Assembly (NCBI RefSeq): GCF_027942295.1
Contig: NZ_CP101416.1
Span: 1,302,001-1,366,000 of the forward strand
From: Pseudanabaena sp. Chao 1811
GTDB taxonomy: Bacteria; Cyanobacteriota; Cyanobacteriia; Pseudanabaenales; Pseudanabaenaceae
DNA length: 64,000 bases
Direction: 5' to 3'
Below the pieces are notes generated by a model. It was not told where the DNA came from. It did no database searches and saw only the letters and a program-made list of their open reading frames with translations. Shown here piece by piece: positions 5,934 through 63,058 of the stretch (position 1 is its first letter; each line of letters begins with the position of its first letter). Both the position numbers and the translations under genes were made by a program.

Positions 5934-8900
5934 TTAACTCTTTTCTTCTAGATTTGGTGGATTGGATTTGTTGTCAGATCTATCCTGTTTCAAAAAAGGA
6001 AGGAGTGTATAGGTTTTTAACATCAGGATTAAAAAATTTTCTTCAGATAGTCCTTCGTCATTACGAAGCTGTAATGCACCAACTACACCTAAACCTAGAA
6101 TCCCTCCAATAATTACGATCGGGAGAAAAATTGGAGGGATATATTTACTAGCAATGATAATCGCGGCAATGATTACGACAAGAGCAAACAGAAAAAATGA
6201 GCCTGATGTCCAAGGGTTTCGTTTGGGTCTGGATGATATGGTCGATTTGGAGTTGTTATCTGGCTCTTGCGTCATGGCTGTGATTTGTTGTTGTTGATTG
6301 TGGGTATTGATATTAACGATGACAGGCTGGGGATAGCGGCTGAAAGCATCTTCACGTTTATCATAATTTTGGCGCGATCGCCTATCTTCAATACTACTAA
6401 TGCCATCAAGTAATTCGCGGATATTGTAAGCGCGATCGCTACCTTCAGGAAAATAATTTATCTCACCTCTCGATTCTAATTTGAGTAGATGTTTGTAACT
6501 GATACTGACTTTAGGATTATCTGGTAAGGGAACACGCTCATCGACTTCTAGTGCCGAGATGCTGTGGTGGATCGATTCAAAATTGTTGCGAATGGCGGCG
6601 AGGGAGGATCGGCGAGTGTTGGGATTGCCATCGATGCGGATAAAGATTTTCGCGTCGGCGAGATCGGCTTTGATGTAGGCGCGATTACCTTCGGGGAATG
6701 CGAGAATTACACCTGTGCGCCAGTAGGTGCGTTTAGAGATGCAGCGGTGCATTTTGACAATGAAGCGGGAAATGACACTGCTAAATAGGATTTTGTAGTG
6801 ATATTCAAGGTTGAGGGTATTTTCCCATGTGCCTGTGTCGGGTTCTTCTTCGTCAAGGAGTTCGGGAATTAGGTAAATGGGCTTTTGAGAATTAGCATCA
6901 AGGGGAAAACATAACTCGAATTTTTGCATCATGTCGAGAATGAATTGCCGATCGCGATTTTCTGAATAACAATCGCGATCGCCTTTATTTTTGGGCGTGA
7001 GAATGCGGGTGAGGTCTTGCCAGTTCAGCATTCCCTTGTATTTGGTGCTGAGTAAATTGTCATTGAGAATGCGATATACGCCGCCTGTGACCCATTCGGG
7101 ATTGAGAACGCTGGTGTCTTGGAGTCTGGTATCTTCGGCGAAGTTGAGAACGATGCCCAGTAGGTGCAAGAGGCGAATTAGGTCGCGGCGTTCTTGGCGA
7201 TCGCTAATTTCTTGATCGTTGCAGATACGTTCGTATTCGGTATAGCTGATATGGTCGCGTTTGTCCTTTTCGATTTGCTCTTTGAGGTGAAACCATTGCT
7301 GGGGTAGTTCATTAAACACATGATCCATTGCGGCGATTTGTTGGGCGATCGCTTTGCGAAGTTCACCAACGCCTAGCCCTGTTTTGCAGGAGGTTTCAAA
7401 GAAGCCTTGAATGTTGGGATATTTCTCTTGCAGATGGCGGCGGTTGAGTTTGAGGGGATGTTCGTCGCTTTTGTTGGCAATAATCAGGACGGGGGCATCT
7501 TTGCCGAAGCTCTCAATAATTTTTAGCCAATATTCGACATCGTTGTTGCCTTCGTCTTTGCGGGCATTGAGTACTAAAAGATAGAGGCTGCGCTCGGTCA
7601 AAAAGAACTGATGGGTGGCGTGCATGATTTCCTGTCCGCCAAAGTCCCAAACCCTGAGCTTGACTGTTTCTTCACGAGCTTTTATTTGCCAATGTCTGAT
7701 ATCAATGCCTTCGGTTTTGGTTTCATCGGGTTTGAAGTTGCGATCGATCAACTGCCGCACCAGTGAGGTTTTGCCAACTGCGCCATGTCCGATTAAGATT
7801 ACTTTCGCTTCATTAAGTGGCTTTCGTTCGCTCTGTTTCCATTTTTGCCAATAGCCAATAATCGCCGATGGGTTGTAATAATCTTCCAAAATTTCTGGCG
7901 GAATCGGTAATGGATTATCTATAAGTTTAAGCTCCGTCAGATTGGCTAAGTTGGAGAACGAGTCTGGTATCGCCGTGATTTGGTTGCTATAGAGGTAAAG
8001 CGTAGTCAGATTGGCTAAGTTGGAGAACGAGTCTGGTATCGCCGTGATTTGGTTGCTATAGAGGTAAAGCGTAGTCAGATTGGCTAAGTTGGAGAACGAG
8101 TCTGGTATCGCCGTGATTTGGTTGCTATAGAGGTAAAGCGTAGTCAGATTGGCTAAGTTGGAGAACGAGTCTGGTATCGCCGTGATTTGGTTGCTAGAGA
8201 GGTTAAGCGTAGTCAGATTGGCTAAGTTGGAGAACGAGTCTGGTATCGCCGTGATTTGGTTGCTAGAGAGGTTAAGCGTAGTCAGATTGGCTAAGTTGGA
8301 GAACGAGTCTGGTATCGCCGTGATTTGGTTGCTAGAGAGGTAAAGCGTAGTCAGATTGGCTAAGTTCGAGATCGAGTCTGGTATCGCCGTGATTTGGTTG
8401 CTATAGAGGTAAAGCGTAGTCAGATTGGCTAAGTTGGAGAACGAGTCTGGTATCGCCGTGATTTGGTTGCTATAGAGGTAAAGCGTAGTCAGATTGGCTA
8501 AGTTGGAGAACGAGTCTGGTATCGCCGTGATTTGGTTGCTATAGAGGTAAAGCGTAGTCAGATTGGCTAAGTTGGAGAACGAGTCTGGTATCGCCGTGAT
8601 TTGGTTGCTAGAGAGGTTAAGCGTAGTCAGATTGGCTAAGTTGGAGAACGAGTCTGGTATCGCCGTGATTTGGTTGCTATAGAGGTAAAGCGTAGTCAGA
8701 TTGGCTAAGTTGGAGAACGAGTCTGGTATCGCCGTGATTTGGTTGCTATAGAGGTAAAGCGTAGTCAGATTGGCTAAGTTGGAGAACGAGTCTGGTATCG
8801 CCGTGATTTGGTTGCTAGAGAGGTTAAGCGTAGTCAGATTGGCTAAGTTGGAGAACGAGTCTGGTATCGCCGTGATTTGGTTGCTAGAGAGGTTAAGCGT

Positions 8901-9260
8901 AGTCAGATTGGCTAAGTTGGAGAACGAGTCTGGTATCGCCGTGATTTGGTTGCTAGAGAGGGAAAGCGTAGTCAGATTGGCTAAGTTCGAGATCGAGTCT
9001 GGTATCGACGTGATTTGGTTGTATGCAATAGAAAGTTCTTTGAGATTGGTCAATTGAAAAATTTCTTGGGGAATAGCAGTTAAACTATTTCCTTTCTTTC
9101 CTTCCTTATCGTCCCACTTACCTAAAATCAACTTTTCCAGACTTTGCAACCGTCCAATTGCTCTGGGCAACCCTTCCAGATCGTTCCCCGACAGATCGAG
9201 TTCCGTCCAGCCCTCACGTTCTGCTTGTGCGATTATTGCCAATAACTCTGCGTCTGTCAT
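5934..9260 (-). CDS. Roco family protein: LRR - Roc GTPase - COR - C-terminal membrane segments
   Basis: 1108 residues. Residues 1-450 are leucine-rich repeats, with fifteen almost identical 23-residue units of type SNLANLTTLYLYSNQITAIPD starting at residue 89. The Roc GTPase follows: G1 GHGAVGKT (about 491-498), G3 DFGGQE (about 537) and G4 NKSD (about 597). A COR-like region covers roughly 650-900. Two hydrophobic stretches at about 1018-1060 (FALVVIIAAIIIASKY and PIVIIGGILGLGVVG) suggest membrane anchoring by the C-terminus. Roco proteins hydrolyse GTP as COR-mediated dimers; bacterial substrates are largely unknown. The start MTDAELLAII fits. A decayed copy of this 5' end lies about 0.9 kb upstream. 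Monocistronic as far as visible. Confidence 0.93.
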   Translation of the reverse strand: MTDAELLAIIAQAEREGWTELDLSGNDLEGLPRAIGRLQSLEKLILGKWDDKEGKKGNSLTAIPQEIFQLTNLKELSIAYNQITSIPDSISNLANLTTLSLSSNQITAIPDSFSNLANLTTLNLSSNQITAIPDSFSNLANLTTLNLSSNQITAIPDSFSNLANLTTLYLYSNQITAIPDSFSNLANLTTLYLYSNQITAIPDSFSNLANLTTLNLSSNQITAIPDSFSNLANLTTLYLYSNQITAIPDSFSNLANLTTLYLYSNQITAIPDSFSNLANLTTLYLYSNQITAIPDSISNLANLTTLYLSSNQITAIPDSFSNLANLTTLNLSSNQITAIPDSFSNLANLTTLNLSSNQITAIPDSFSNLANLTTLYLYSNQITAIPDSFSNLANLTTLYLYSNQITAIPDSFSNLANLTTLYLYSNQITAIPDSFSNLANLTELKLIDNPLPIPPEILEDYYNPSAIIGYWQKWKQSERKPLNEAKVILIGHGAVGKTSLVRQLIDRNFKPDETKTEGIDIRHWQIKAREETVKLRVWDFGGQEIMHATHQFFLTERSLYLLVLNARKDEGNNDVEYWLKIIESFGKDAPVLIIANKSDEHPLKLNRRHLQEKYPNIQGFFETSCKTGLGVGELRKAIAQQIAAMDHVFNELPQQWFHLKEQIEKDKRDHISYTEYERICNDQEISDRQERRDLIRLLHLLGIVLNFAEDTRLQDTSVLNPEWVTGGVYRILNDNLLSTKYKGMLNWQDLTRILTPKNKGDRDCYSENRDRQFILDMMQKFELCFPLDANSQKPIYLIPELLDEEEPDTGTWENTLNLEYHYKILFSSVISRFIVKMHRCISKRTYWRTGVILAFPEGNRAYIKADLADAKIFIRIDGNPNTRRSSLAAIRNNFESIHHSISALEVDERVPLPDNPKVSISYKHLLKLESRGEINYFPEGSDRAYNIRELLDGISSIEDRRSRQNYDKREDAFSRYPQPVIVNINTHNQQQQITAMTQEPDNNSKSTISSRPKRNPWTSGSFFLFALVVIIAAIIIASKYIPPIFLPIVIIGGILGLGVVGALQLRNDEGLSEENFLILMLKTYTLLPFLKQDRSDNKSNPPNLEEKS
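7935..8996. repeat. tandem 69-bp LRR-coding repeat, 15 full copies plus a partial
   Basis: Each 69-bp unit encodes one 23-residue LRR. Units differ mainly at codons giving LYLYSN versus LNLSSN. A variant unit carrying SIS (gagatcgag instead of gagaacgag) occurs twice, 621 bp (nine units) apart, and is followed both times by the order N-N-Y-Y, so a multi-unit block was itself duplicated. Near-identity at DNA level implies recent or ongoing homogenisation. Confidence 0.97.
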
Positions 9261-14663: not shown

Positions 14664-14753
14664 CTTTGTCGCCTTAGTTTATGCATTAATTTAGACTTCC
14701 TTAAATATAAAAACTAAAATCTGTGTCATAGGTTTTAGATCTGGGTTTTAATT

Positions 14754-14837
14754 ATGCTGAGATACTTAGCAAATCAAGAGGGGGGAAGTGGTATAGGGCT
14801 AGAAATTGTCCAAAATATTGGACATCAGCACGATTAA
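14754..14837 (+). pseudogene. remnant of a histidine-kinase ATPase domain (G2 box)
   Basis: A 27-codon frame contains GGSGIGLEIVQNIGHQHD followed by a stop. GGSGIGLxIVxxIxxxHGG is the G2 box at the end of many cyanobacterial histidine-kinase HATPase domains; here the final glycines are lost. No other kinase motif precedes it. It looks like a decayed kinase fragment in front of the coupled SBP-kinase operon. Confidence 0.5.
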
Positions 14838-25185: not shown

Positions 25186-26931
25186 ATGAAAAACTCAAAT
25201 AAGTCAAATCTAATTTTAGTGGTCGATGATGAAGCTGAAATTCAAAGACTAATGCTGCAAAGGTTTAGGAAAAAGATTCAGTCGGGGGAACTTGCTTTCC
25301 AGTTTGCACAGAATGGTGTGGATGCAATCCAGATTTTAAGAGATTCCCATGAGATCAGTGTCGTACTCACCGATATCAGAATGCCAGAAATGGACGGTCT
25401 AACCCTACTATCTAACTTAGCGGAGTTCGATCGCCCCCTTAAGGCAGTTGTGGTTTCCGCCTATGGAGATATGAAAAATATTCGGACAGCAATGAACTGG
25501 GGAGCCTTTGATTTTGTAACCAAGCCAATTGATTTTGCAGACCTCGAAATTACTCTCAATAAAACCTTAGCCTTTGTCAACAATTTACAGGAGAAAGAGC
25601 AAAAGCTCCAGGAAGCCCTTAACACATTACATAACTTAGTATTTTATGACCAGTTAACAGGTATGCCCAATCGTAATGGGCTAATTAAATATATTGCTAA
25701 GAGTATTGTCCTCAAACAAACTAGAGGCGATGCCTTTGCGCTATTGATACTTGATATAGAACGTTATGCAATTATTAAATCAGGATTTGGACATGCTCTG
25801 AGCGATCGCCTTTTGATTGAAGTAGCCAAGCGACTAGAGCAATGGAACGTCAATTCTAAAGTAGTTGCTCGGCTAGATAATAATGAATTAGCGGTTTTAT
25901 TACAGGATTTAGAAAGCCCTGCTAGTCTAACCAAATATATTAAACAGCTACATCAACTATTTGAGGTTCCTATTCAGCTAGATGAGATTAGTATTTCTTC
26001 TTTAATTCATGTAGGGGTAGCATCGAGTGATCTTCCTTACGATCAACCCGAAGATATTCTCAGGGCAGCTGATACTGCCATTCATTATGCTAAACAAGCG
26101 GTAGGAACTCGAACTGTTTTTTTTGATACGAATATGCAGCAGAAAGCTCTCCAAAGACTCAATTTGGAAGTAAATCTGCAAGAAGCAATTAAACTTCAGA
26201 ATTTAGAAGTTCACTATCAGCCAATTTTTCAGTTAAAGACATCTCAGTTGATTGGGTTTGAAGCCTTGGTACGATGGCAACATCCAACGCAGGAGTGGCT
26301 CTCCCCTCTAAAATTCATTCCCTTAGCAGAAGAGACTGGACTGATTGTACGTTTAGGCAATTGGGTTCTCAGAGAAGCTTGTTTGCAATTGCAAAGATGG
26401 CAAAAATTATTTGGCAATGCTTGCCCTACAAGGATTAGCGTTAATCTTTCAAGCTTACAATTAGTCAGTCCTACACTCCTACAAAATATTGATCAAACTC
26501 TCAGTGATACTGGTCTTAGTGGCGAGAATTTAATTTTGGAGATTACAGAAACGGTATTAATGGAAAATATCCAAGAAGCAGTTGAAGTCCTCCAACATTT
26601 ACGAGACAGATGCATTGGATTATCAATTGATGATTTTGGTACAGGATATTCTTCCCTCTCTTATCTACAATCTTTACCTCTAACTGCTTTAAAAATTGAT
26701 CGCTCTTTTATTCAGAATATTGAATCTAACCAGACCAATCTAGAAATCACTTCCACAATTATTGAACTAGCTAAACGCTTAGGACTAAAAGTAGTAGCAG
26801 AGGGACTAGAAAAAGAAATTCATGTGGATATTTTACGTTCACTTAACTGTGATTACGGACAGGGTTTTTTATTTTCTCGACCAATTCCTGCTGATGAGGC
26901 TACTAAATTAATTGCGGAACAATTGCGATAA
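25186..26931 (+). CDS. response regulator REC-GGDEF(degenerate)-EAL
   Basis: Start chosen at ATG 25186 ([16 protein letters not shown]), because translation from an upstream ATG at 25066 gives 40 unlikely residues. The receiver carries [11 protein letters not shown] and matches the receiver of the kinase at 12599. The GGDEF domain reads VVARLDNNELAVLL where GGDEF should be, so diguanylate cyclase activity is unlikely. The EAL domain keeps FEALVRWQHP, ILEITETVL, LSIDDFGTGYSSLSYL, LKIDRSFI and VVAEGLE, consistent with an active c-di-GMP phosphodiesterase. Probably the output of the adjacent kinases. Confidence 0.93.
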   Translation: MKNSNKSNLILVVDDEAEIQRLMLQRFRKKIQSGELAFQFAQNGVDAIQILRDSHEISVVLTDIRMPEMDGLTLLSNLAEFDRPLKAVVVSAYGDMKNIRTAMNWGAFDFVTKPIDFADLEITLNKTLAFVNNLQEKEQKLQEALNTLHNLVFYDQLTGMPNRNGLIKYIAKSIVLKQTRGDAFALLILDIERYAIIKSGFGHALSDRLLIEVAKRLEQWNVNSKVVARLDNNELAVLLQDLESPASLTKYIKQLHQLFEVPIQLDEISISSLIHVGVASSDLPYDQPEDILRAADTAIHYAKQAVGTRTVFFDTNMQQKALQRLNLEVNLQEAIKLQNLEVHYQPIFQLKTSQLIGFEALVRWQHPTQEWLSPLKFIPLAEETGLIVRLGNWVLREACLQLQRWQKLFGNACPTRISVNLSSLQLVSPTLLQNIDQTLSDTGLSGENLILEITETVLMENIQEAVEVLQHLRDRCIGLSIDDFGTGYSSLSYLQSLPLTALKIDRSFIQNIESNQTNLEITSTIIELAKRLGLKVVAEGLEKEIHVDILRSLNCDYGQGFLFSRPIPADEATKLIAEQLR

Positions 26932-26984
26932 AACCTAAGAGATGAGTAGCGGCGCTTCGCGCCGCTACTCATCTCTTAGGTTTT
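26930..26984. repeat. long perfect palindrome, 26-bp arms with loop TTC
   Basis: Arms run 26930-26955 and 26959-26984 (centre GGCGC-TTC-GCGCC) with A/T outer ends, overlapping the end of the EAL gene. Works as a terminator on either strand and belongs to the set of 3-nt-loop palindromes seen across the window. Confidence 0.85.
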
Positions 26985-27050
26985 AATTGATAGTTATGAC
27001 TAACAGTTGCGATAACATAAGCAATTACATGCGTATTTTTAGCTTGTCAT

Positions 27051-34419: not shown

Positions 34420-34472
34420 AAGCCCAAATAAGTGAAGGCGGCACGAAGTGCCGCCTTCACTTATTTGGGCTT
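34420..34472. terminator. long perfect palindrome after the Uma2 gene
   Basis: Arms of 25 bases (AAGCCCAAATAAGTGAAGGC... and complement) around loop GAA. Probable terminator and member of the 3-nt-loop palindrome set; a degenerate relative (AAATGAAGGC...GCCACCTTCATTT) lies at about 56450-56483. Confidence 0.8.
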
Positions 34473-46086: not shown

Positions 46087-46151
46087 TCAATTTGCTGAAC
46101 ATGCGAAATAGCCCTTAAGTGCTTACAGTGCTTTGCACTCAAGCCTAAACC

Positions 46152-46200
46152 AAGAAAAGTTTTAAAAGCGTTGCTTCGCAACGCTTTTAAAACTTTTCTT
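46152..46200. terminator. bidirectional terminator, 23-bp perfect palindrome
   Basis: AAGAAAAGTTTTAAAAGCGT... arms of 23 bases with loop TTC, between the convergent channel and TerB genes. Confidence 0.85.
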
Positions 46201-46208
46201 GTGGTTCC

Positions 46209-46856
46209 TTAGCAATACTTAGAGATATCTTCGCCTTTGTCAGCGAGATAACTAAGCGATCGAAAACGTAATCCCACGAGCTGATCGTATAGAGGATTAA
46301 TTTCACACATGGCGGGAATGTGCATGATTTTGCGTCCAAACAAGACGATATCGCGCTCGAAAGGACATTGAGCGGGGACAACCTTACAAATTAGGTTCGC
46401 CAGTCGGGAATCATGGATATCCATATGATCGAGCCATTCCTTGACAGGCTCTAGCAGATCGGGATGATGCTCTTCATGGTGTGATGCGGATTCTAATTTG
46501 ATCCGTAATTCGTTGATTGGCGTTATTTCTTGATCAAGAGCCGTGCAAAATTCTTGAATAACGCGATCTTCTGTATCTGTATATTTACCGTCGGCGAGTG
46601 CCATCATCACTGCCATTCGTAAAAAATTCTGCCCCACCCTGCGATCGCTACCCAATGCATCAGCCAGTTCTTGGGCGCTAATTGGTTCAAAACTTGAAAT
46701 GGGAATTTCCTCGCCCCATTCATCACTATGGCTGATCTGATCAAAAAGGTTACGCTCTTGATCACTGTAATCATTGTCTGCGAGAGCCACGCTCATGAGT
46801 CCCCGCAACCAAGCTGAAATCTGCGCTTGTGTATAAGTTGGATGATCTGTTTTCAT
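46209..46856 (-). CDS. TerB-like domain fused to Mo-dependent nitrogenase C-terminus-like domain
   Basis: 215 residues. Residues 1-130 have two TerB-like repeats (WLRGLMSVALADNDYSDQER; RMAVMMALADGKYTDTEDRV) with acidic, metal-binding-like loops. Residues 140-215 read HDSRLANLICKVVPAQCPFE, IMHIPAMCEINPLYDQLVGL and SLSYLADKGED, the cyanobacterial domain named after Mo-nitrogenase C-termini. No nitrogenase genes are near, so the name should not be taken as function. Confidence 0.75.
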   Translation of the reverse strand: MKTDHPTYTQAQISAWLRGLMSVALADNDYSDQERNLFDQISHSDEWGEEIPISSFEPISAQELADALGSDRRVGQNFLRMAVMMALADGKYTDTEDRVIQEFCTALDQEITPINELRIKLESASHHEEHHPDLLEPVKEWLDHMDIHDSRLANLICKVVPAQCPFERDIVLFGRKIMHIPAMCEINPLYDQLVGLRFRSLSYLADKGEDISKYC

Positions 46857-47003
46857 AACAAGTCAGTCTACAGGTTGACTAAATCATAGATTGCTTTGTC
46901 TTGCATTGGTGCAGTTATGGCATTAAGGAATGTTTAACAATAATCCCCTTACTTAACAATGAGTCTTCCCATCATCCAAAAATCTAGGGCTTTACGCTAA
47001 TCT

Positions 47004-47110
47004 AAGTAGCTAGGCGCAATTAAATATAAAACCCAAAAGCTGTGGCGCACGCGCAGCGTACGCCACAGCTTTTGACGCTGGATTTTAACTATGTCCAGCC
47101 AGAGCTACTT
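47004..47110. repeat. palindromic element, copy 1 (AAGTAGCT termini)
   Basis: Opens AAGTAGCTAGGCGCAATTAA, has a core AAAAGCTGTGGCG...CGCCACAGCTTTT at 47035-47073, and closes AGCTACTT. The second copy at 57412-57513 shares both termini, the AATTAAA flank and the core. This copy lies between divergent genes, so it is not a terminator. The rest of the 311-bp intergenic region shows nothing else. Confidence 0.85.
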
Positions 47111-47167
47111 ACAAAATAGGTACGAAATAATCTTCTTTTTCTTGTTATTAATTGATATTGAGCTGAT

Positions 47168-47995
47168 ATGAGTAGTTTTAACACTTCACAAATACCAATC
47201 GCAATGACGATCGCTGGTTCGGATAGTGGTGGTGGTGCAGGGATACAGGCTGACCTCCGCACCTTTGCCTTTCATTGTGTGCATGGAACCAGCGTACTCA
47301 CCTGCATCACTGCCCAAAATACACAGGGTGTAACGCGAGTGGATGCCATGCCAACCGAAGCAGTAACAGCTCAATTTGAAGCGGTGATGATTGATATGCG
47401 AGTGGGGGCAATCAAAACGGGAATGCTGCTCAATCAAGAGATTATTAAAACCGTTGCTAAGAAATTAGTTGCCTTTGGCTTTGGGAATGTGGTGGTTGAT
47501 CCAGTGATGGTGTCACGGGCGGGAGCGCAATTATTAGATGATGATGCAGTGAAAACGATCCGTGAGCAGTTAATTCCTCTTGCAGCGATCGCTACGCCTA
47601 ACCGCTATGAAGCCCAAATTCTGGCAGATATGGAAATTCATACGCTGGAAGATATGCAAACATCGGCTCAGAAAATTTATAAATTGGGAGCGCGATCAGT
47701 TCTCGTCAAGGGTGGTGGCTTTACCAACGAACTAAAGGGAATTGATGTGTGGTTTGATGGCGATCACCTTGAGGTTTTACAGACAGAAGTAATTGATACC
47801 CCCCATACCCATGGTACTGGCTGTACTTTGTCCGCCGCGATCGCTGCAAATTTAGCTCTAGGGAAACCACGGTTTCAAGCAGTACTAGACGCAAAGAACT
47901 ATGTTACTGAAGCTTTGAAATATTCTTTAGCGATCGGGCAAGGACAGGGACCAGTTGGACATTTCTATCCATTACTGAAGCCTAGTATCCAATAG
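47168..47995 (+). CDS. thiD: hydroxymethylpyrimidine/phosphomethylpyrimidine kinase
   Basis: 275 residues, ribokinase fold: AMTIAGSDSGGGAGIQADLR, AIKTGMLLNQEIIK, VVDPVMVSRAGAQLLDDDAV and DTPHTHGTGCTLSAAIAANL (catalytic Cys/GTGC anion hole) are ThiD signatures. Two sequential phosphorylations give HMP-PP for thiamine synthesis. Single gene; no THI-box element seen upstream. Confidence 0.96.
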   Translation: MSSFNTSQIPIAMTIAGSDSGGGAGIQADLRTFAFHCVHGTSVLTCITAQNTQGVTRVDAMPTEAVTAQFEAVMIDMRVGAIKTGMLLNQEIIKTVAKKLVAFGFGNVVVDPVMVSRAGAQLLDDDAVKTIREQLIPLAAIATPNRYEAQILADMEIHTLEDMQTSAQKIYKLGARSVLVKGGGFTNELKGIDVWFDGDHLEVLQTEVIDTPHTHGTGCTLSAAIAANLALGKPRFQAVLDAKNYVTEALKYSLAIGQGQGPVGHFYPLLKPSIQ

Positions 47996-48129: not shown

Positions 48130-48483
48130 TCATAAAAGTTCTGCATTATCTTCTGTTGGTAAAAGCGGTAGGATAAATTCTAGAAGATTAGGGATTTGTG
48201 AGTTTGCGACTTGCCAAGTTAGGTTCAAGTCAACTTGATTATAATCGTGTATTAGTTTATCGCGCATTCCCGCGATTTGCTTCCACGGTATTTCTGGGTG
48301 GGTCTCTCGAAATTCTGGTGATAGGTGTTTGACAATTTCTCCCAAAATCGCAATTTCGTATACAACCGAAAAGTGAATGCGCTTTTCGGTTAAAAATTGT
48401 TGCTTGGTAGCTCCTTCCATCAGTTCAGCAATATTAGAACAGACTGTGGCAATATCAAGCAGATAGGCTGGATCTCGTTGCAT
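48130..48483 (-). CDS. hepT: HepT-like toxin (DUF86), second pair
   Basis: 117 residues, helical, with RDKLIHDYNQVDLNLTW: the R-X4-H-X-Y motif of HepT RNases. It overlaps the preceding MntA-like gene by 29 bp. In characterised pairs MntA poly-AMPylates the HepT tyrosine and thereby neutralises it. Confidence 0.87.
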   Translation of the reverse strand: MQRDPAYLLDIATVCSNIAELMEGATKQQFLTEKRIHFSVVYEIAILGEIVKHLSPEFRETHPEIPWKQIAGMRDKLIHDYNQVDLNLTWQVANSQIPNLLEFILPLLPTEDNAELL

Positions 48484-48796
48484 AAATCACCTGTGCAGTA
48501 TTTAAAATTGCTTTGCGTCGAATCCAGTTTGGGCTGTCTATAACGGCTTGCTTGCTAACTAAGTCAACTTTGCGATGAAATATATCTTCTAGTTGCCATT
48601 CCATTGTCACCAAATCTAGAAGGCTATTTTGTGATTCAGGTGCAAATACGACCAGACAGTCGATGTCACTATCGGAGCGAAAGTCATCGCGCAGGACGGA
48701 ACCAAAGAGGGCAAATTCGACAATCTGCCAGTGATCGCAAAATTCGACAATCTGTGGCATTGGTAGATTAATATTTTTAACTAAACAGGTGTTCAT
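48455..48796 (-). CDS. mntA: MntA-like minimal nucleotidyltransferase antitoxin, second pair
   Basis: 113 residues with FGSVLRDDFRSDSDIDCLVV, the GS-X10-DXD nucleotidyltransferase motif, and RKVDLVSKQAVIDSPNW. Follows the first HepT gene by 20 nt. About half its residues match the other MntA at 49130, so the pairs look like an old tandem duplication. Confidence 0.87.
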   Translation of the reverse strand: MNTCLVKNINLPMPQIVEFCDHWQIVEFALFGSVLRDDFRSDSDIDCLVVFAPESQNSLLDLVTMEWQLEDIFHRKVDLVSKQAVIDSPNWIRRKAILNTAQVIYATRSSLSA

Positions 48797-48816
48797 TTTA
48801 CAGATCCTTGCTAACC

Positions 48817-49140
48817 CTACAAATTTTCTAAGTATTTCAACAGTTCAGGGATATTTTCTGTGATGACTGTCCAAATTTCGGTTGGGTCAACTTCATCGTA
48901 GTCATGGGTAATTACATCTCGCATTCCTGCTATTTTCTTCCAAGGTATATCGGAATGTTTTTGCCTAAATTCTGGAGATAATCGTTTAGTTGCCTCACCA
49001 ATGATAGTAATACGCCGCAAAATAGCGTCTTGCTTTTCATAATTGACGGCTAGCGCATCCTGATCTATTCCTTTCACATACTGCAAAATCAGTTTGATAG
49101 ATTCTGTGATATCAATAATTGCTTCTTGATCACGCGACAT
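48817..49140 (-). CDS. hepT: HepT-like toxin (DUF86), first pair
   Basis: 107 residues with RDVITHDYDEVDPTEIW (R-X4-H-X-Y) and PEFRQKHSDIPWKKIAGM, typical of DUF86. Overlaps the end of the MntA gene by 11 bp. Expected to be an RNase toxin held inactive by AMPylation of the motif tyrosine. Confidence 0.88.
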   Translation of the reverse strand: MSRDQEAIIDITESIKLILQYVKGIDQDALAVNYEKQDAILRRITIIGEATKRLSPEFRQKHSDIPWKKIAGMRDVITHDYDEVDPTEIWTVITENIPELLKYLENL

Positions 49141-49468
49141 AAATTACCTCGGCAGATTCAAGGATATTTTTGCGTCTTAGCCAGTTATGACTTTGGATAA
49201 TGGCTTGTTTGCTAACTAGGTCAACTTTACGATTTAACATTATTTCCAGTTCTTCTTTCATGGTAATTTTTTCAAATAGACCGCGTTTAGCATTAGGTTG
49301 ATAGGAAACTAATAAATCTATATCGCTATCTTCGCGAAAGTCATCTCGCAGGATTGAACCAAATAATGCTAGTTCAGCAACTTTCCATTTTTGACAAAAT
49401 TGAGTAAGTTGTTGGCTAGAAATACCAAGACGATTATAGATTTTAGGGTTTGATATTTGGCTATACAT
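49130..49468 (-). CDS. mntA: MntA-like minimal nucleotidyltransferase antitoxin, first pair
   Basis: 112 residues with FGSILRDDFREDSDIDLLVS (GS-X10-DXD) and NRKVDLVSKQAIIQSHNWLR. Starts 11 nt after the stop of the restriction-modification gene on the same strand, so co-transcription is likely. Confidence 0.88.
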   Translation of the reverse strand: MYSQISNPKIYNRLGISSQQLTQFCQKWKVAELALFGSILRDDFREDSDIDLLVSYQPNAKRGLFEKITMKEELEIMLNRKVDLVSKQAIIQSHNWLRRKNILESAEVIYVA

Positions 49469-49479
49469 TTTATGACTCC

Positions 49480-52400
49480 TTACCCAAATGGGAAGCCTCC
49501 ATGTTTGGTAATGATTTGATCGATATCGCTCATGATCTCGATGGTTTCGCCGAGGATGGAAATGATGTTTTGATAATGAACGAGGTTGTCAAAGCTGAGT
49601 TCTCGTCCTTTGCGATCGCTGAGCCATTTTTTACAAACTTGATAGCCGCCGATGTAGAAGTTCCAAATGTGTTTGGGGATATTGGCGAAATACTGCTGGT
49701 CGTTAATCCAGATTTGTTGTTGGGTTTCGTTGTATTTGACTTGTTCGACAAGGTTAGAGCCATCGATGGGATAGTTACTAATTTCTGCGCCTGTTTCTTT
49801 CATCAGGTGGAGTTGTACGAGTCTGTCGCCTTTGGTGGCTAGTTCCCAAAATAGTTGTTTGTTGCTGGTGAGGGGGACTCGAGGAAAGTCGATTTTGAGA
49901 AATTCGGCGTAGCGTTGGCGATAGGTAGGGGAGTGGAAGGTGGCATAAATGTAGTTAAAGATGTCTTCTGGTGCAAAGGTTTTGACTTGATCGCCTTTGC
50001 CATCTGGGAAAAATTCTAAGCTAAGTTTTTCGGAAAGTTCGTTAATAAATTCTGGTGCTAGGTTTGGGCGGCGACCATGTGGGGAGTTGGTTGGTTCGGC
50101 TTCAAATAGGGTTGGGGTGTTGGTTGGATAGAGATAGAGAGGGAAAATAACAGCCCCTTTTGCTGTATCAAGCAGGTTATGGTCAACAGTACAATTTGAA
50201 CACAACCAATGTGTATAGTTGTTCCCAAGAATCTGCCTGTGCATAACGATTGATATATTTTCACCCAAAATCATATGCTGCATAACTTCATCTCTTGATC
50301 GATCCACCAAATCCGAGTTATGAAAGTAGTTTTTGAAGTCAAAGGGACGATAAAGACATTGAGTAAAACATTTTTCCCATTCAAGATTTGCAGATAAAGA
50401 TTTTCTCTTACGATCTATATTCCAATCACTTTTAGCTTGAAGTTGATATTTCTCTGAAACATCTTCATTAGAAATCTTTAAGTTTCTGAAATCGTTAATA
50501 CGTCCATAAAGCGAATGGTAGTCATAATCAAACACAAAATGATCTCTATGAGTTTTTACGCCTGTTGAATTAACAGACATAATATCAACTACTTTCCAGC
50601 CTTTTTCATACTCTGGCAACAAATCTACATTTCTATCTTTAAAGAGATAAAAACTTGCATTAGGATTTATAACTTTCCATTCAGTCGAACTAATATCATT
50701 TTCATCTAACCAATGATATTTGCCCCCAACTAATTCCTTATTCTCCTTAACCTCTCTAACACCCCACAAATCAGCATGATAAACCTTAGCTAAATCTTGC
50801 TGACTATCTTGATACTTGATAAAAAACGCGATCGCTACCCCTTGCTGAATATCAAACACATTTTGATCGGGTGAACCATCGGGACAAACTTCTTTTTTCT
50901 TGCTATTACCATGCAAATCTAAAATATAAATCTCATCAAAAGTCTGCATCAAATTTTGACGCATTCCCCGAAAAGTTGGATTGTCCAAATAACCATGATT
51001 TGTGATTAAAGCCACAACCCCATAACCAGTTTCCGCAACCCGATGCTGAGCAAAGCGAATAAACTTCACATAATCATCCAATAAACCTTTAGGATTTCTC
51101 TCTCCCAATGGTTTTCCATCCACATGATAATAATCCTTAACCAAATTCACAATCCAAGGATCGGTATTCATCGACTCATAGGAATAAGGCGGATTGCCCA
51201 AAATCACCATTACAGGCGTATCTTGCTTAACCCCTTTCGCCGCCTCTGCCTCATCACGAATGCGATTCATAAAACCATCCGCCGCAGGAATTTGAAAACC
51301 TTCCTGTAAAGTATTCGTCAAATAAATCCGTAAACGCTCCTCAGAACTAAAATCATAACCAGTTTCTTGAAGCTGTAACCCCAACTTCATGTGCGCCACC
51401 GTATAAGGAGCCATCAGCAACTCAAAACCAAATAAACGCGGTAACAAATGCTGACTCACATAACCCGACCACATCCCCTTCTGATTCTTAAAACCCTCAT
51501 AAATATGCTCAATCACCCGATGCATAAACGTCCCAGTCCCCACCGCAGGATCGAGAATTAGCACCTTATGCATAGGTTCCGAACCCCCTCTAACTCCCCC
51601 TTGCGAAGGGGGAGAACTAGAATCTTTACTTCCCTCCTTCAAAGGAGAAGAACTGGAATCTTTACTTCCCCCCTTCAAAGGGGGGACTGAGGGGGGTGAA
51701 TTAGTGGCGACTGCGGGAGGTAAAATTTTCGTACTATCTGCCAACCCCTTCTTAATCCCAAACTTCTCCTTGAGAATATAATCCACACTCCGCACAATAT
51801 ACCCAACCACAGGCTCAGGCGTATAGTAAACTCCCCGTGACTCGCGCATCTTTGGGTCATATTCCGCCAAGAAAGTCTCATAAAAATGCACCACAGGATC
51901 TTCACGGCGATCGCGCTTACCAAAATCGCTCAAAATAGCCGACATATCCGTTTGCTGCAAAATAGTCGCCAAAGTATCCACCGCCCACACAATGCGATCG
52001 TCAAGTTCCGAACCCGCAATCTGATTAAAAATCCCCCGCAAAAATGGATTCGTTTTTGGTAAGCGAAAACCCGCCGTCTCTCTCGTAAACGTACTCACTT
52101 GATCCGTATTGCAACGCGCCGCAAACAAACCATAGCAAATCGTCTGAGCATACATATCCGCAAACTGTTCCCCCGTCAAATCGCGAATCAACACCGCCCG
52201 AAAAGACTCTAACTGATCCGATAACATCCCACCGCGATCGCTATCATTCAAAGCCGTATTAATGGCATCCCTGATCAACTGAGCCAAAGCCGCCATCCTT
52301 TTGGCGAGCGCCTTGGGAGTCGTGACCTGCGCCACCTTAGTTAATAGAAACTGTCGCAAAAGTTGATCAACCTGTGCCATTCCATCAGGATCAGGCTTAA

Positions 52401-52782
52401 TCTTTTTCTGTTTATCAAAAGAAGCTACAGAAGCCGCCAGCCGTAACTCTCCACCCACATACCATCGAAACTCTAAATGATCCGTCAAAATTAAATTTCC
52501 CAAAGCATTGAAATAACGCTGCATTTGGTTCTTCTTTTCCAAACTCTTCAGCGAAATCCCAATATCCTTAGCCTCAAGATGCCCAATCTCTAACGCCCCC
52601 TGACTAATTAAAAAATCTGGCGCACCGCAAGCAATCCGCTTCGGCTCATTCACCGCCAAGATATTGTTATCAAACGATTCAAGCAACTTCTTCAACGCAG
52701 GACGATAGGTATGCTCAGTCGCATTACCCTTTTGATAAATCTGCGTCACTTCTTGCAAATAAGCTTGAATTTGATTAGTCAT
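49480..52782 (-). CDS. restriction-modification protein: nuclease-like N-terminus, N6-adenine methylase and target-recognition region (type ISP/IIG-like)
   Basis: 1100 residues. The N-terminus has CGAPDFLISQGALEIGHLEAK, a PD-(D/E)XK-like nuclease pattern. The methylase has motif I LILDPAVGTGTFMHRVIEH (about 408) and motif IV VMVILGNPPYSYES (about 530). The C-terminal ~500 residues should hold the recognition domain and end in NLVHYQNIISILGETIEI. There is no helicase, so it is closer to single-chain IIG-like or helicase-less ISP proteins. Residues ~360-400 are a translated interspersed repeat just before motif I. Heads a probable operon with two MntA/HepT pairs. Confidence 0.85.
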   Translation of the reverse strand: MTNQIQAYLQEVTQIYQKGNATEHTYRPALKKLLESFDNNILAVNEPKRIACGAPDFLISQGALEIGHLEAKDIGISLKSLEKKNQMQRYFNALGNLILTDHLEFRWYVGGELRLAASVASFDKQKKIKPDPDGMAQVDQLLRQFLLTKVAQVTTPKALAKRMAALAQLIRDAINTALNDSDRGGMLSDQLESFRAVLIRDLTGEQFADMYAQTICYGLFAARCNTDQVSTFTRETAGFRLPKTNPFLRGIFNQIAGSELDDRIVWAVDTLATILQQTDMSAILSDFGKRDRREDPVVHFYETFLAEYDPKMRESRGVYYTPEPVVGYIVRSVDYILKEKFGIKKGLADSTKILPPAVATNSPPSVPPLKGGSKDSSSSPLKEGSKDSSSPPSQGGVRGGSEPMHKVLILDPAVGTGTFMHRVIEHIYEGFKNQKGMWSGYVSQHLLPRLFGFELLMAPYTVAHMKLGLQLQETGYDFSSEERLRIYLTNTLQEGFQIPAADGFMNRIRDEAEAAKGVKQDTPVMVILGNPPYSYESMNTDPWIVNLVKDYYHVDGKPLGERNPKGLLDDYVKFIRFAQHRVAETGYGVVALITNHGYLDNPTFRGMRQNLMQTFDEIYILDLHGNSKKKEVCPDGSPDQNVFDIQQGVAIAFFIKYQDSQQDLAKVYHADLWGVREVKENKELVGGKYHWLDENDISSTEWKVINPNASFYLFKDRNVDLLPEYEKGWKVVDIMSVNSTGVKTHRDHFVFDYDYHSLYGRINDFRNLKISNEDVSEKYQLQAKSDWNIDRKRKSLSANLEWEKCFTQCLYRPFDFKNYFHNSDLVDRSRDEVMQHMILGENISIVMHRQILGNNYTHWLCSNCTVDHNLLDTAKGAVIFPLYLYPTNTPTLFEAEPTNSPHGRRPNLAPEFINELSEKLSLEFFPDGKGDQVKTFAPEDIFNYIYATFHSPTYRQRYAEFLKIDFPRVPLTSNKQLFWELATKGDRLVQLHLMKETGAEISNYPIDGSNLVEQVKYNETQQQIWINDQQYFANIPKHIWNFYIGGYQVCKKWLSDRKGRELSFDNLVHYQNIISILGETIEIMSDIDQIITKHGGFPFG
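51581..51700. repeat. interspersed CCCCCTT(N)AAGGGGG repeat inside the methylase gene
   Basis: Three linked units, each a short hairpin (e.g. CCCCCTTGCGAAGGGGG, CCCCCCTTCAAAGGGGGG) joined by AACTRGAATCTTTACTTCC. Such elements are usually intergenic in cyanobacteria; here they keep the frame and encode SPPSVPPLKGGSKDSSS-type peptide. Confidence 0.88.
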
Positions 52783-56508: not shown

Positions 56509-56563
56509 AAAACCCAAAATGCAAGTAGCGGTGCTTCGCACCGCTACTTGCATTTTGGGTTTT
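56509..56563. terminator. long perfect palindrome, 26-bp arms, loop TTC
   Basis: AAAACCCAAAATGCAAGTAG... with complement. About 100 bp past the DUF815 stop and before tRNA-Pro. A degenerate hairpin precedes it at about 56450-56483. Confidence 0.82.
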
Positions 56564-57321: not shown

Positions 57322-57370
57322 AATTTAGAGGTGATATGGGGTGCTTCGCACCCCATATCACCTCTAAATT
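57322..57370. repeat. 23-bp perfect palindrome in the rhodanese leader
   Basis: AATTTAGAGGTGATATGGGG... with complement, loop TTC (GAA on the transcript). It ends 20 nt before the rhodanese ATG, next to the ribosome-binding site. Confidence 0.8.
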
Positions 57371-57411
57371 CTTTCCCTAATTTTGACATTGGAACGATTT
57401 CTAATACTTTT

Positions 57412-57513
57412 AAGTAGCTAGGCATAATTAAAAAATAGAACCAAAAGCTGTGGCGCTCGCGCCGCGAGCGCCACAGCTTTTAGGGTTTTATATTTAATTG
57501 CACTCAGCTACTT
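57412..57513. repeat. palindromic element, copy 2 (AAGTAGCT termini)
   Basis: AAGTAGCTAGGCATAATTAA ... AAAAGCTGTGGCGCTCGC-GCC-GCGAGCGCCACAGCTTTT (57443-57481) ... TTTAATTGCACTCAGCTACTT. Nearly the whole element is self-complementary; the right end contains the stop codon of the neighbouring desaturase-type gene. Confidence 0.88.
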
Positions 57514-58260
57514 AAATGGATAGATTAAATGATTCAAGTAACTAGTCTGAATATTTAATTTACTGCCATACTTGGTTGGAGTTTCTCCTTGAGGCATATG
57601 CCAAGTGCCAAATATATAATCAATAATTGGCAACTGGACAGCAAAGTTTTTATTAGATATTTTCGGATTGCGATCATGATGCCAATGATGAAACTCTGGT
57701 GTCGCAATCAGCAACTTTAAAATTGGAAACTGAATACGAATATTGGCATGAATAAAAAAAGCGATCGCACTAGAAAAAATTGCATAAATTACTAAGGCTT
57801 CTGTTGAAAACCCTAACCAATAAAGGGGAATCATTTGACAAGCTTTAGTAAAAATCTGCTCGAAAGGATGCACTCGAACTGTCGCTAGCCAGTCAATATG
57901 GGTTGAGCTATGATGAATTGCGTGAAATTGCCATAACCAAGGCACAGTATGTAATAGGCGATGGGCAAAATAAAAACAAAGATCACCAATCAAGATAGAA
58001 ACTACTACTTGCAAGCTAAGTGGTTGTTGAGATACAAACCTAGATAGCATCGGTATTGAACCTTGACTGAGCAAGGAAAATACTATTAAAATCTGTATCG
58101 TTCCTTTGCCAATAAAATAGCCTGAGAAATAATAACAAAGATCAGTTAGCCAACCTTCACGAAATAGATTTTGCTGATGCAAAGCTAATACTTTCTCAAG
58201 TGGAATAAATACACAAATTAGAATCAATATCCCTTTTATGACATCAGGTATTTCTAGCAT
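57508..58260 (-). CDS. fatty acid hydroxylase/sterol desaturase superfamily membrane protein
   Basis: 250 residues with the di-iron histidine boxes HRLLH (box 1), HAIHHSS (box 2) and HHWHHD (box 3), and four to five helices. Such enzymes hydroxylate or desaturate membrane lipids or carotenoids; the substrate is not deducible. Follows the pentapeptide-repeat gene on the same strand by 20 bp. Confidence 0.88.
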   Translation of the reverse strand: MLEIPDVIKGILILICVFIPLEKVLALHQQNLFREGWLTDLCYYFSGYFIGKGTIQILIVFSLLSQGSIPMLSRFVSQQPLSLQVVVSILIGDLCFYFAHRLLHTVPWLWQFHAIHHSSTHIDWLATVRVHPFEQIFTKACQMIPLYWLGFSTEALVIYAIFSSAIAFFIHANIRIQFPILKLLIATPEFHHWHHDRNPKISNKNFAVQLPIIDYIFGTWHMPQGETPTKYGSKLNIQTSYLNHLIYPFK

Positions 58261-61666: not shown

Positions 61667-63058
61667 GTGACGACGACCATTAACTTAAACTCGCTAGGAG
61701 TGGGTGGGCGCACACAAGATTCATCTGGCTTTGCTTGGTGGTCTGGTAATGCGCGACTCATTAACCTTTCTGGCAAACTGCTGGGCGCTCACGTTGCTCA
61801 CGCTGGTCTGATTGTATTCTGGGCTGGTGCAATGACTTTATTTGAAGTCGCGCACTTTGTTCCTGAAAAGCCAATGTATGAGCAAGGCTTTATCCTACTT
61901 CCTCACCTTGCCACCCAAGGCTGGGGTGTTGGAGCTGGTGGCGAAGTTGTGGATATTTTCCCATACTTCGTAGTTGGCGTTTTACACTTGATTTCCTCTG
62001 CTGTACTTGGCTTTGGTGGTATCTACCATGCCTTGCGTGGTCCTGAAGTTTTAGAAAATTATTCTTCTTTCTTTGGCTACGACTGGAAAGACAAGAACCA
62101 AATGACCAATATCATTGGTTATCACCTGATCGTATTGGGCTTTGGTGCACTCCTACTCGTATTCAAAGCGATGTTCTTTGGTGGACTCTATGATACATGG
62201 GCACCTGGTGGTGGCGATGTGCGTGTGATCACCAACCCTACACTGAACCCAGTTGTTATCTTCGGCTATTTGCTCAACTCCCCATTTGGTGGTGAGGGCA
62301 ATATCGTTGGTGTTAATAACCTTGAAGATGTAGTTGGTGGACATATTTGGATCGGCTTAATCATGATCAGTGGCGGTATCTGGCATATCCTCACTAAGCC
62401 TTTTGGTTGGGCAAGACGTGCTCTTGTTTGGTCTGGTGAAGCATATCTCTCCTACAGCCTTGGTGCTTTGAGCTTGATGGCATTTATTGCTACTTGCTTT
62501 GTATGGTTCAACAACACTGTTTATCCTAGTGAGTTCTTTGGTCCTACTGGTGCTGAAGCTTCTCAATCCCAAGCATTTACCTACCTCGTTCGTGACCAAA
62601 AGCTTGGTGCAAACATTGCAACATCTCAAGGTCCTACAGGTCTTGGTAAATACCTCATGCGTTCTCCATCTGGCGAAATCATCTTCGGTGGTGAAACCAT
62701 GCGTTTCTGGGACTTCCGTGGTCCTTGGTTAGAGCCTCTTCGTGGTCCTAGTGGTTTGGACATCGACAAACTCAAGAATGACGTTCAGCCTTGGCAAGTA
62801 CGTCGCGCTGCTGAGTACATGACTCACGCTCCTTTGGGTTCCTTGAACTCAGTAGGCGGTGTTATAACTGAAATCAACGCGGTAAACTTCGTATCTCCTC
62901 GTTCTTGGTTGTCTACTTCTCACTTTGTATTGTCTTTCATGTTCTTAGTTGGTCACCTATGGCACGCTGGCCGCGCACGCGCAGCAGTTGCTGGTTTTGA
63001 AAAGGGTATCGACCGTGAGACTGAAGCTGTACTTTCGATGCCTGCGCTCGATAAATAG
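61667..63058 (+). CDS. psbC: photosystem II CP43 chlorophyll apoprotein
   Basis: 463 residues from GTG ([20 protein letters not shown]), with GGAG 10 bases upstream. [60 protein letters not shown] (Glu/Arg near the Mn cluster) and [20 protein letters not shown] are CP43. Inner antenna of photosystem II. In most cyanobacteria psbC starts inside psbD; here a 210-bp spacer separates them. Confidence 0.98.

Follow-up and report, generated by a model that had tools for sequence, protein, structure and literature searches.

Two short palindromic elements (E1 and E2) in a 64,000-nucleotide stretch of the Pseudanabaena sp. Chao 1811 genome, which is called the window here, are very probably MITEs, that is, non-autonomous copies of an IS630-family (Tc1/mariner-like) insertion sequence. 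They belong to a family of dispersed, non-coding elements, each shorter than 300 bp and present in many copies, with terminal inverted repeats of about 22–32 bp that start with AGTAGCT. This is a new family within a known kind, the IS630-type MITE, and in behaviour it is closest to RUP. The MITE-like nature of the two elements had been proposed in an earlier reading of the window made from the letters alone (the sequence-only reading), and it is supported by dispersed copies throughout the genus, by empty sites with a TA duplication, and by ends of IS630 type. The outstanding feature of the family is clear loop inversion at orthologous sites.

The two elements and their surroundings

E1 occupies positions 47003–47111 of the window (plus strand, A-end to the left) and is 109 bp long including the TA at both ends. 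E2 occupies 57411–57514 in minus orientation, with its A-end to the right; it is 104 bp long and scores 128.4 bits on the minus strand. Two elements of about 105 bp had been described earlier, and both are present where they had been placed, the coordinates given here running from TA to TA. E1 exceeds the modal length of 104 bp and has additional bases near its right end. Its A-end terminal repeat spans 47003–47034 (plus strand), and its core hairpin, at 47035–47073, has an 18-pair stem with one mismatch and a GCA loop. The core hairpin of E2, at 57443–57481, has a perfect 18-bp stem and a loop that reads GCC on the plus strand.

The common ends of E1 and E2, TAAGTAGCT...AGCTACTTA, mark them as one family. 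Allowing up to three mismatches, the end pattern occurs four times in the window, where 0.02 matches are expected by shuffling, and the core AAAAGCTGTGGCG has four exact matches (two per element) and seven with up to two mismatches, where 1.96 are expected. These matches above the shuffled expectation confirm the common ends and core stem that had been claimed. Three of the four end matches are ends of E1 and E2, and the last is the end of a third, decayed family copy at 14684–14768 (plus strand, 48 bits, E 1.2e-6), which the earlier count of two copies in the window had overlooked. On either strand, the folding of both E1 and E2 is much more favourable than that of dinucleotide-shuffled sequences (z −7.5 to −11.1).

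The settings of the two elements had also been read correctly: E1 lies between divergent ORFs (46209–46856 on the minus strand and 47168–47995 on the plus strand), and E2 lies over a stop codon. This TAG (57508–57510, minus strand) ends an FA_hydroxylase-family ORF (57508–58260, minus strand), lies inside the E2 terminal repeat and comes from E2. The G020 orthologue lacks E2, and there the frame reads on, with 15 residues where the Chao 1811 protein has a single K. Judging from this one orthologue, the arrival of E2 appears to have swapped the last 15 residues of the protein for one and to have given it its stop.

Some other features of the window are worth recording. Perfect hairpins with 23–27-bp stems and 3-nt loops, all terminator-like, are found at 26929–26985, 34420–34472, 46151–46201, 56509–56563 and 57322–57370. 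The MITE ends are absent at the three of them that were inspected (26929, 56509 and 57322), and it is possible that such hairpins are the source of the MITE core. There is also a 69-bp tandem repeat array at 7786–9120 and an IsrR antisense RNA (RF01419, 175 bits) at 62084–62270. Two adjacent pairs of small ORFs at 48130–49468 resemble, as we take it, nucleotidyltransferase (MNT) plus HEPN and are possibly toxin-antitoxin-like, and the 1100-aa ORF at 49480–52782, which has an NPPY motif, is presumably a fused restriction-modification enzyme.

Copy number and distribution

The sequence-only reading had named one outcome that would speak against it, namely that only these two copies exist and that they are fixed in position in all relatives. 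This is not the case: a search of the genome and of its relatives for the termini returns dispersed copies throughout the genus. A 22-base end pattern with up to three mismatches has 260 matches in the 4.73-Mb genome compared to 0 for the reversed control, corresponding to at least 130 copies or fragments provided that both ends are seen in every copy. With a covariance model of 37 copies (cut-off E ≤ 1e-4) there are at least 150 matches in the Chao 1811 genome, which fall at no fewer than 94 distinct places, since most elements are matched once on each strand. Counted in the same way on both strands, model matches are found in all 26 genus genomes examined, from 20 (G001) to at least 150, and 22 of the 26 have at least 100. 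BLAST finds matches in 23 of 23 genus genomes and in 1 of 15 others.

In the phylum as a whole, the end pattern with up to one mismatch is found in 47 of 386 genomes, some of which, where there is a single match, may be there by chance, as the reversed control gave five matches, one in each of five genomes. Three sampled members of the genus have 80–127 such matches, and any other genome of the phylum has at most 36. The family has no phage match, and its plasmid matches are in two records, both from Pseudanabaena sp. ABRG5-3. A shallow and thus weak literature search, mostly without subscription papers, found no prior description of this Pseudanabaena element.

For closer study, 80 non-overlapping candidates were drawn from 124 overlapping ones, and 68 of these were kept, having TA at both ends, a length of at most 140 bp and a recognisable A-end (L186 was removed by hand). 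Exactly 104 bp is the length of 35 of these 68 TA-bounded elements. Beside the main family there is a second MITE subfamily (L213, L220 and L222) with the core AGATTGTTCCGCCCGC, in which L213 and L222 have similar left halves and inverted loops (TAC/GTA). Other short elements with the same ends (84–139 bp; L186, L196, L200 and L202) occur in other cyanobacterial genera, and the IS630 clade with these ends may have several MITE derivatives.

Empty sites and target duplication

The empty sites and target duplications for which the sequence-only reading had suggested a search were both found. The joined flanks of 13 elements were compared with the loci fetched from five relatives, leaving out an L224-junction match in G020 and an E2-junction match in G021. 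Seven elements (E1, E2, L002, L006, L012, L203 and L211) have a clean empty site in one or more of the five relatives, three more (L008, L016 and L030) have an element-free site with nearby indels, and the other three (L018, L025 and L224) have no empty site among the fetched loci. E1 is absent in G039 and G040, where the sequence is flank-TA-flank with exactly one TA and no scar, and the orthologous position is occupied in G021. By this comparison the TA has been duplicated around E1, with the left copy at 47003–47004 and the right copy at 47110–47111. The empty site of E2 in G020 has GA at the target instead of TA, so that this case requires one later substitution. The target of the family is TA, and it is duplicated on insertion.

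It was also observed that L211 in Chao 1811 and L268 in G021 are different copies that lie about 15 bp apart in one intergenic site of two species, and are independent insertions. A preference for insertion into palindromes was considered and rejected: flank complementarity is not significant over the 68 elements, with 119 of 2000 permutations (4 nt) and 1098 of 2000 (10 nt) being at least as high, although a few sites (L019, L032 and L224) are at the centres of palindromes.

Relationship to IS630 transposases

The A-end of the MITE derives from the 3′ terminus of a transposase gene of the IS630 family, of which it comprises the last codons and the stop: two relics and several related transposase genes end in nearly all of the bases found in the outer 30 positions of the E1 A-end. 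The first relic, at G000:C1:1548252-1548680 of the Chao 1811 genome (G000), is a broken DDE_3 gene adjoining an end, TAAGTAGCTAGGCATAATTAAATATAAAACG, that shares 28 of 30 bases with the A-end of E1; its frame ends ...RFIFNYA, and the TAG stop lies within the terminal repeat. A second, truncated relic at 3105605–3105700 agrees at 97% over 32 residues and has 29 of the 30 A-end bases. The relic protein is matched in 14 of the 26 genus genomes, mostly weakly, and 12 are without a match. The closest element found in the genus is a 1109-bp IS630 of G020, which has the ends TAAGTAGGTAGGC/GCCTAACTACTTA and whose HTH_23 and DDE_3 ORFs are broken up.

Other cyanobacteria contribute nine related loci. 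Seven of them have 28–29 of the 30 E1 A-end bases at the 3′ end of the transposase, and of the remaining two, one (labelled L176/L145) has 26 and the other (L181) none. In three of the nine (L174, L177 and L178) both ends are present, 1125–1126 bp apart. The ORFs between them differ in state: L174, from a Synechococcaceae MAG, has two overlapping ones that reach the right end, with HTH and DDE_3 domains confirmed, the two of L178 are separate, and L177 has a truncated second one. For the three ORFs tried, two of which are halves of one split gene, the best NCBIfam match is NF033545 (IS630), in all cases below the cut-off. By eye, the agreement of the MITE B-end with the left ends of related IS630s is weaker than that of the A-end and is limited to the outer part.

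An ORF-bearing element with such ends, which had been proposed as a further check, exists as IS630-family elements in G020 and in other cyanobacteria, and as relics in G000. No intact transposase with the MITE ends was found in G000, only relics; of the 5 among 35 DDE_3 hits that are without a locus, the ends were checked only at 1548339. The earlier statement that no transposase with such ends is seen in the window agrees with the fact that none of the 35 genome hits to DDE_3 (IS630-type, the only type sought) lies inside it. A second IS630 subgroup in the genus has 36–40% identity to the relic and an outer TAAGTAGCTAGGCATAA common to most of its copies, and could act in trans on the MITE. 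In the mechanism that these likenesses suggest, a DDE transposase acting in trans would bind both ends, excise the element and insert it at another TA, and copies would survive mainly in intergenic DNA.

Another IS630 of the genome, which has 22 copies, was rejected as the partner, its ends (TACAGCC.../...GGACTGTA) being unlike those of the MITE. Its copies at 22 sites of the Chao 1811 genome (L114–L135) are near-identical, are bounded by TACAGCC and GGACTGTA, and have apparently been active recently.

The core hairpin

Variation in the core was followed in an alignment (A2) of E1 and 36 of the 68 elements, those of 103–105 bp whose A-end scored 2 or less, giving 37 rows. In these copies the core forms a stem of 18 pairs closed by a 3-nt loop, and 98.6% of the stem cells are paired. 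Ten of the 18 stem pairs are changed on both sides, in 43 of 666 cells (0 of 500 shuffles are as high), and otherwise there are 5 cells with a one-sided standard-pair change and 9 unpaired ones, where cells are sequences and not events. In the terminal repeats of the same rows, 0 of 22 pairs are changed on both sides. The 63 loops that were scored read GCA (35), TGC (13), TAC (4), GTA (2) or otherwise (9), so that 54 of the 63 fall into GCA/TGC or TAC/GTA, two mutually inverse (reverse-complement) pairs.

Orthologous elements allow such changes to be seen at one and the same site. Eight orthologous pairs have both flanks aligned and six were used, leaving out L207/L300 (two adjacent elements, ambiguous) and L219/L290 (an unrelated core, with 77% flank identity). 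In the stems of the six, 99 pairs are the same, 4 have two-sided and 5 have one-sided changes, and outside the stem 17 of 383 positions are substituted. The loop is exactly inverted in three of the six orthologous pairs, E1 among them, a count that rests on only these six pairs. If the three loop bases changed independently at 17/383 per site, this would be expected in about 1 in 11,000 cases per pair (hand computation). L225 and L328 differ only in the inverted loop and in one other base, the first.

The likeliest source of these changes is replication with template switching between the two arms, which would rewrite one arm from the other and invert the loop, and in our judgement it has close to an even chance of being the right one. 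According to PMC8794818, loop inversion and multi-base compensatory change are footprints of template switching; the same text describes loop inversion alone as enriched, and compensatory change together with loop inversion as rare and not significant. The pattern in the core does not require selection on an RNA hairpin, though such selection may play a part. The core may be a self-rewriting palindrome, in which the loop would be flipped and one arm copied onto the other so often that inversion and paired change separate orthologues no less than independent point mutation does, a description that we hold tentatively, with slightly less than even confidence. Against immediate arm copying, one-sided stem changes (5) are no fewer than two-sided ones (4) between orthologues, so that the copying would not be immediate.

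Ectopic conversion by another copy could mimic part of these changes. Alternatively, the covariation and the loop flips could be due to descent from numerous master copies, together with gene conversion among copies of opposite orientation, with no template switching in place. Around a hundred or more similar copies are there to supply such variants, and there is the second subfamily with a different core (L213, L220 and L222), but L225/L328 would need a conversion confined to 3 nt, and we regard this explanation of the core as unlikely.

Terminators and gene context

It is also rather improbable, and to about the same degree, that the core is a functional bidirectional transcription terminator, kept for termination, with its covariation coming from selection on the RNA. 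This would be compatible with the elements being MITEs, and the strong covariation in the stem would fit it, as would the terminator-like form that a consensus scan finds for E1 on the minus strand and for E2 on both, a strong GC-rich stem with T-rich sequence after it. However, inverted loops and coupled changes also mark template switching (PMC8794818), and there are few wobble intermediates, with 5 one-sided and 9 unpaired cells (a wobble of the other strand being scored as unpaired here) against 43 two-sided ones. Nor are the positions those expected of terminators. The 44 elements of the Chao 1811 genome divide into 26 in tandem, 13 in divergent and 3 in convergent spacers, with 2 in ORFs, and the TA content of the window spacers, 438:261:64 in the same order, is close to this split; these classes are approximate, as ORFs were called simply, longest first, and TA was counted in this window only. 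Enrichment at gene ends is not seen among the 44, and since the positions follow the TA content of the spacers there is no sign of selection for gene ends. The earlier remark that location follows mobility rather than termination therefore holds, at least roughly. In 5 of the 44 elements the end of an ORF is overlapped by exactly 3 bases, as would follow if insertion had struck the TA of a stop codon and restored it.

Other readings of the family

The sequence-only reading had also suggested a REP-associated TnpA as the source of mobility. Here the elements would be REPs or REPINs moved by a RAYT (Y1, IS200/IS605-like) transposase, and the GTAG in AAGTAGCT would be the REP foot. The elements are indeed palindromic, about 104 bp long and mostly intergenic, with GTAG near both ends; the genome has three Y1_Tnp genes, and GTAG-tagged repeats are reported in cyanobacteria (PMC3733652). 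In the present family, however, GTAG is part of a long terminal repeat that matches IS630 ends, and not the unpaired foot of a small hairpin. REPINs are not known to duplicate TA on insertion, and insertion of these elements does so. There is no association with the Y1_Tnp genes either: of the three 3.3-kb loci around them in the Chao 1811 genome, one has a family end, 1.3 kb off, and two have none that is recognisable, and one end is about what is expected for such a copy number. A REP/REPIN origin, which we consider very improbable, is rejected because TA is duplicated and the ends are IS630-like, both of which point to an IS630-type transposase, and because linkage to Y1_Tnp genes is lacking. 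That the elements are chance palindromes or an ordinary immobile intergenic repeat, for which there is only the AT-richness of the spacers around them, is refuted by the 260 against 0 end matches and by the empty sites, and its probability is negligible.

Comparison with known repeats

RUP, the repeat unit of pneumococcus, duplicates TA. In PMC3049150 it is described as about 107 bp long, with 110 copies in one genome and a duplicated target; its ends are like those of an IS630-family element, and it is proposed to be mobilised by IS630-Spn1. RUP is also reported there to be rich in AT (27.5% GC) and to lie between convergent genes more often than expected. The Pseudanabaena MITE is similar to RUP in size, copy number, IS630-type ends and target duplication; it differs in host and sequence, its core is a GC-rich hairpin with a 3-nt loop, and it is not enriched in convergent spacers. 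ISY100, of the IS630-Tc1-mariner group, is likewise an IS630-family element in a cyanobacterium with a strong preference for TA, but unlike the MITE it is autonomous and has its own gene, and the likeness is one of family and target preference. Nezha, cited in PMC10969869, is a MITE of cyanobacteria; here the likeness is one of kind and host group.

PMC10969869 and PMC3049150 describe two further small palindromic repeats. Correia elements of Neisseria have more than 120 copies, can invert and alter expression, and are reported to act via promoters, an IHF site and RNase III, and SPRITE of pneumococcus has 30 copies and is terminator-like. Their likeness to the Pseudanabaena MITE is one of form. 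Finally, the template-switch hairpins of PMC8794818 are described in RNA genes, whereas here they would be found in a mobile element of many copies.

Significance

With these elements identified as IS630-type MITEs, a repeat that is frequent in Pseudanabaena genomes is explained and linked to an IS630 clade of several other cyanobacteria. The elements provide replicates at the same site in related species, which let compensatory change and loop inversion be counted directly, and such counts bear on whether covariation proves RNA function. If it is true that the core rewrites itself, the family would serve as a natural record, replicated many times over, of template switching at hairpins within a living bacterium, and each copy would be a mobile, self-repairing terminator-like hairpin.
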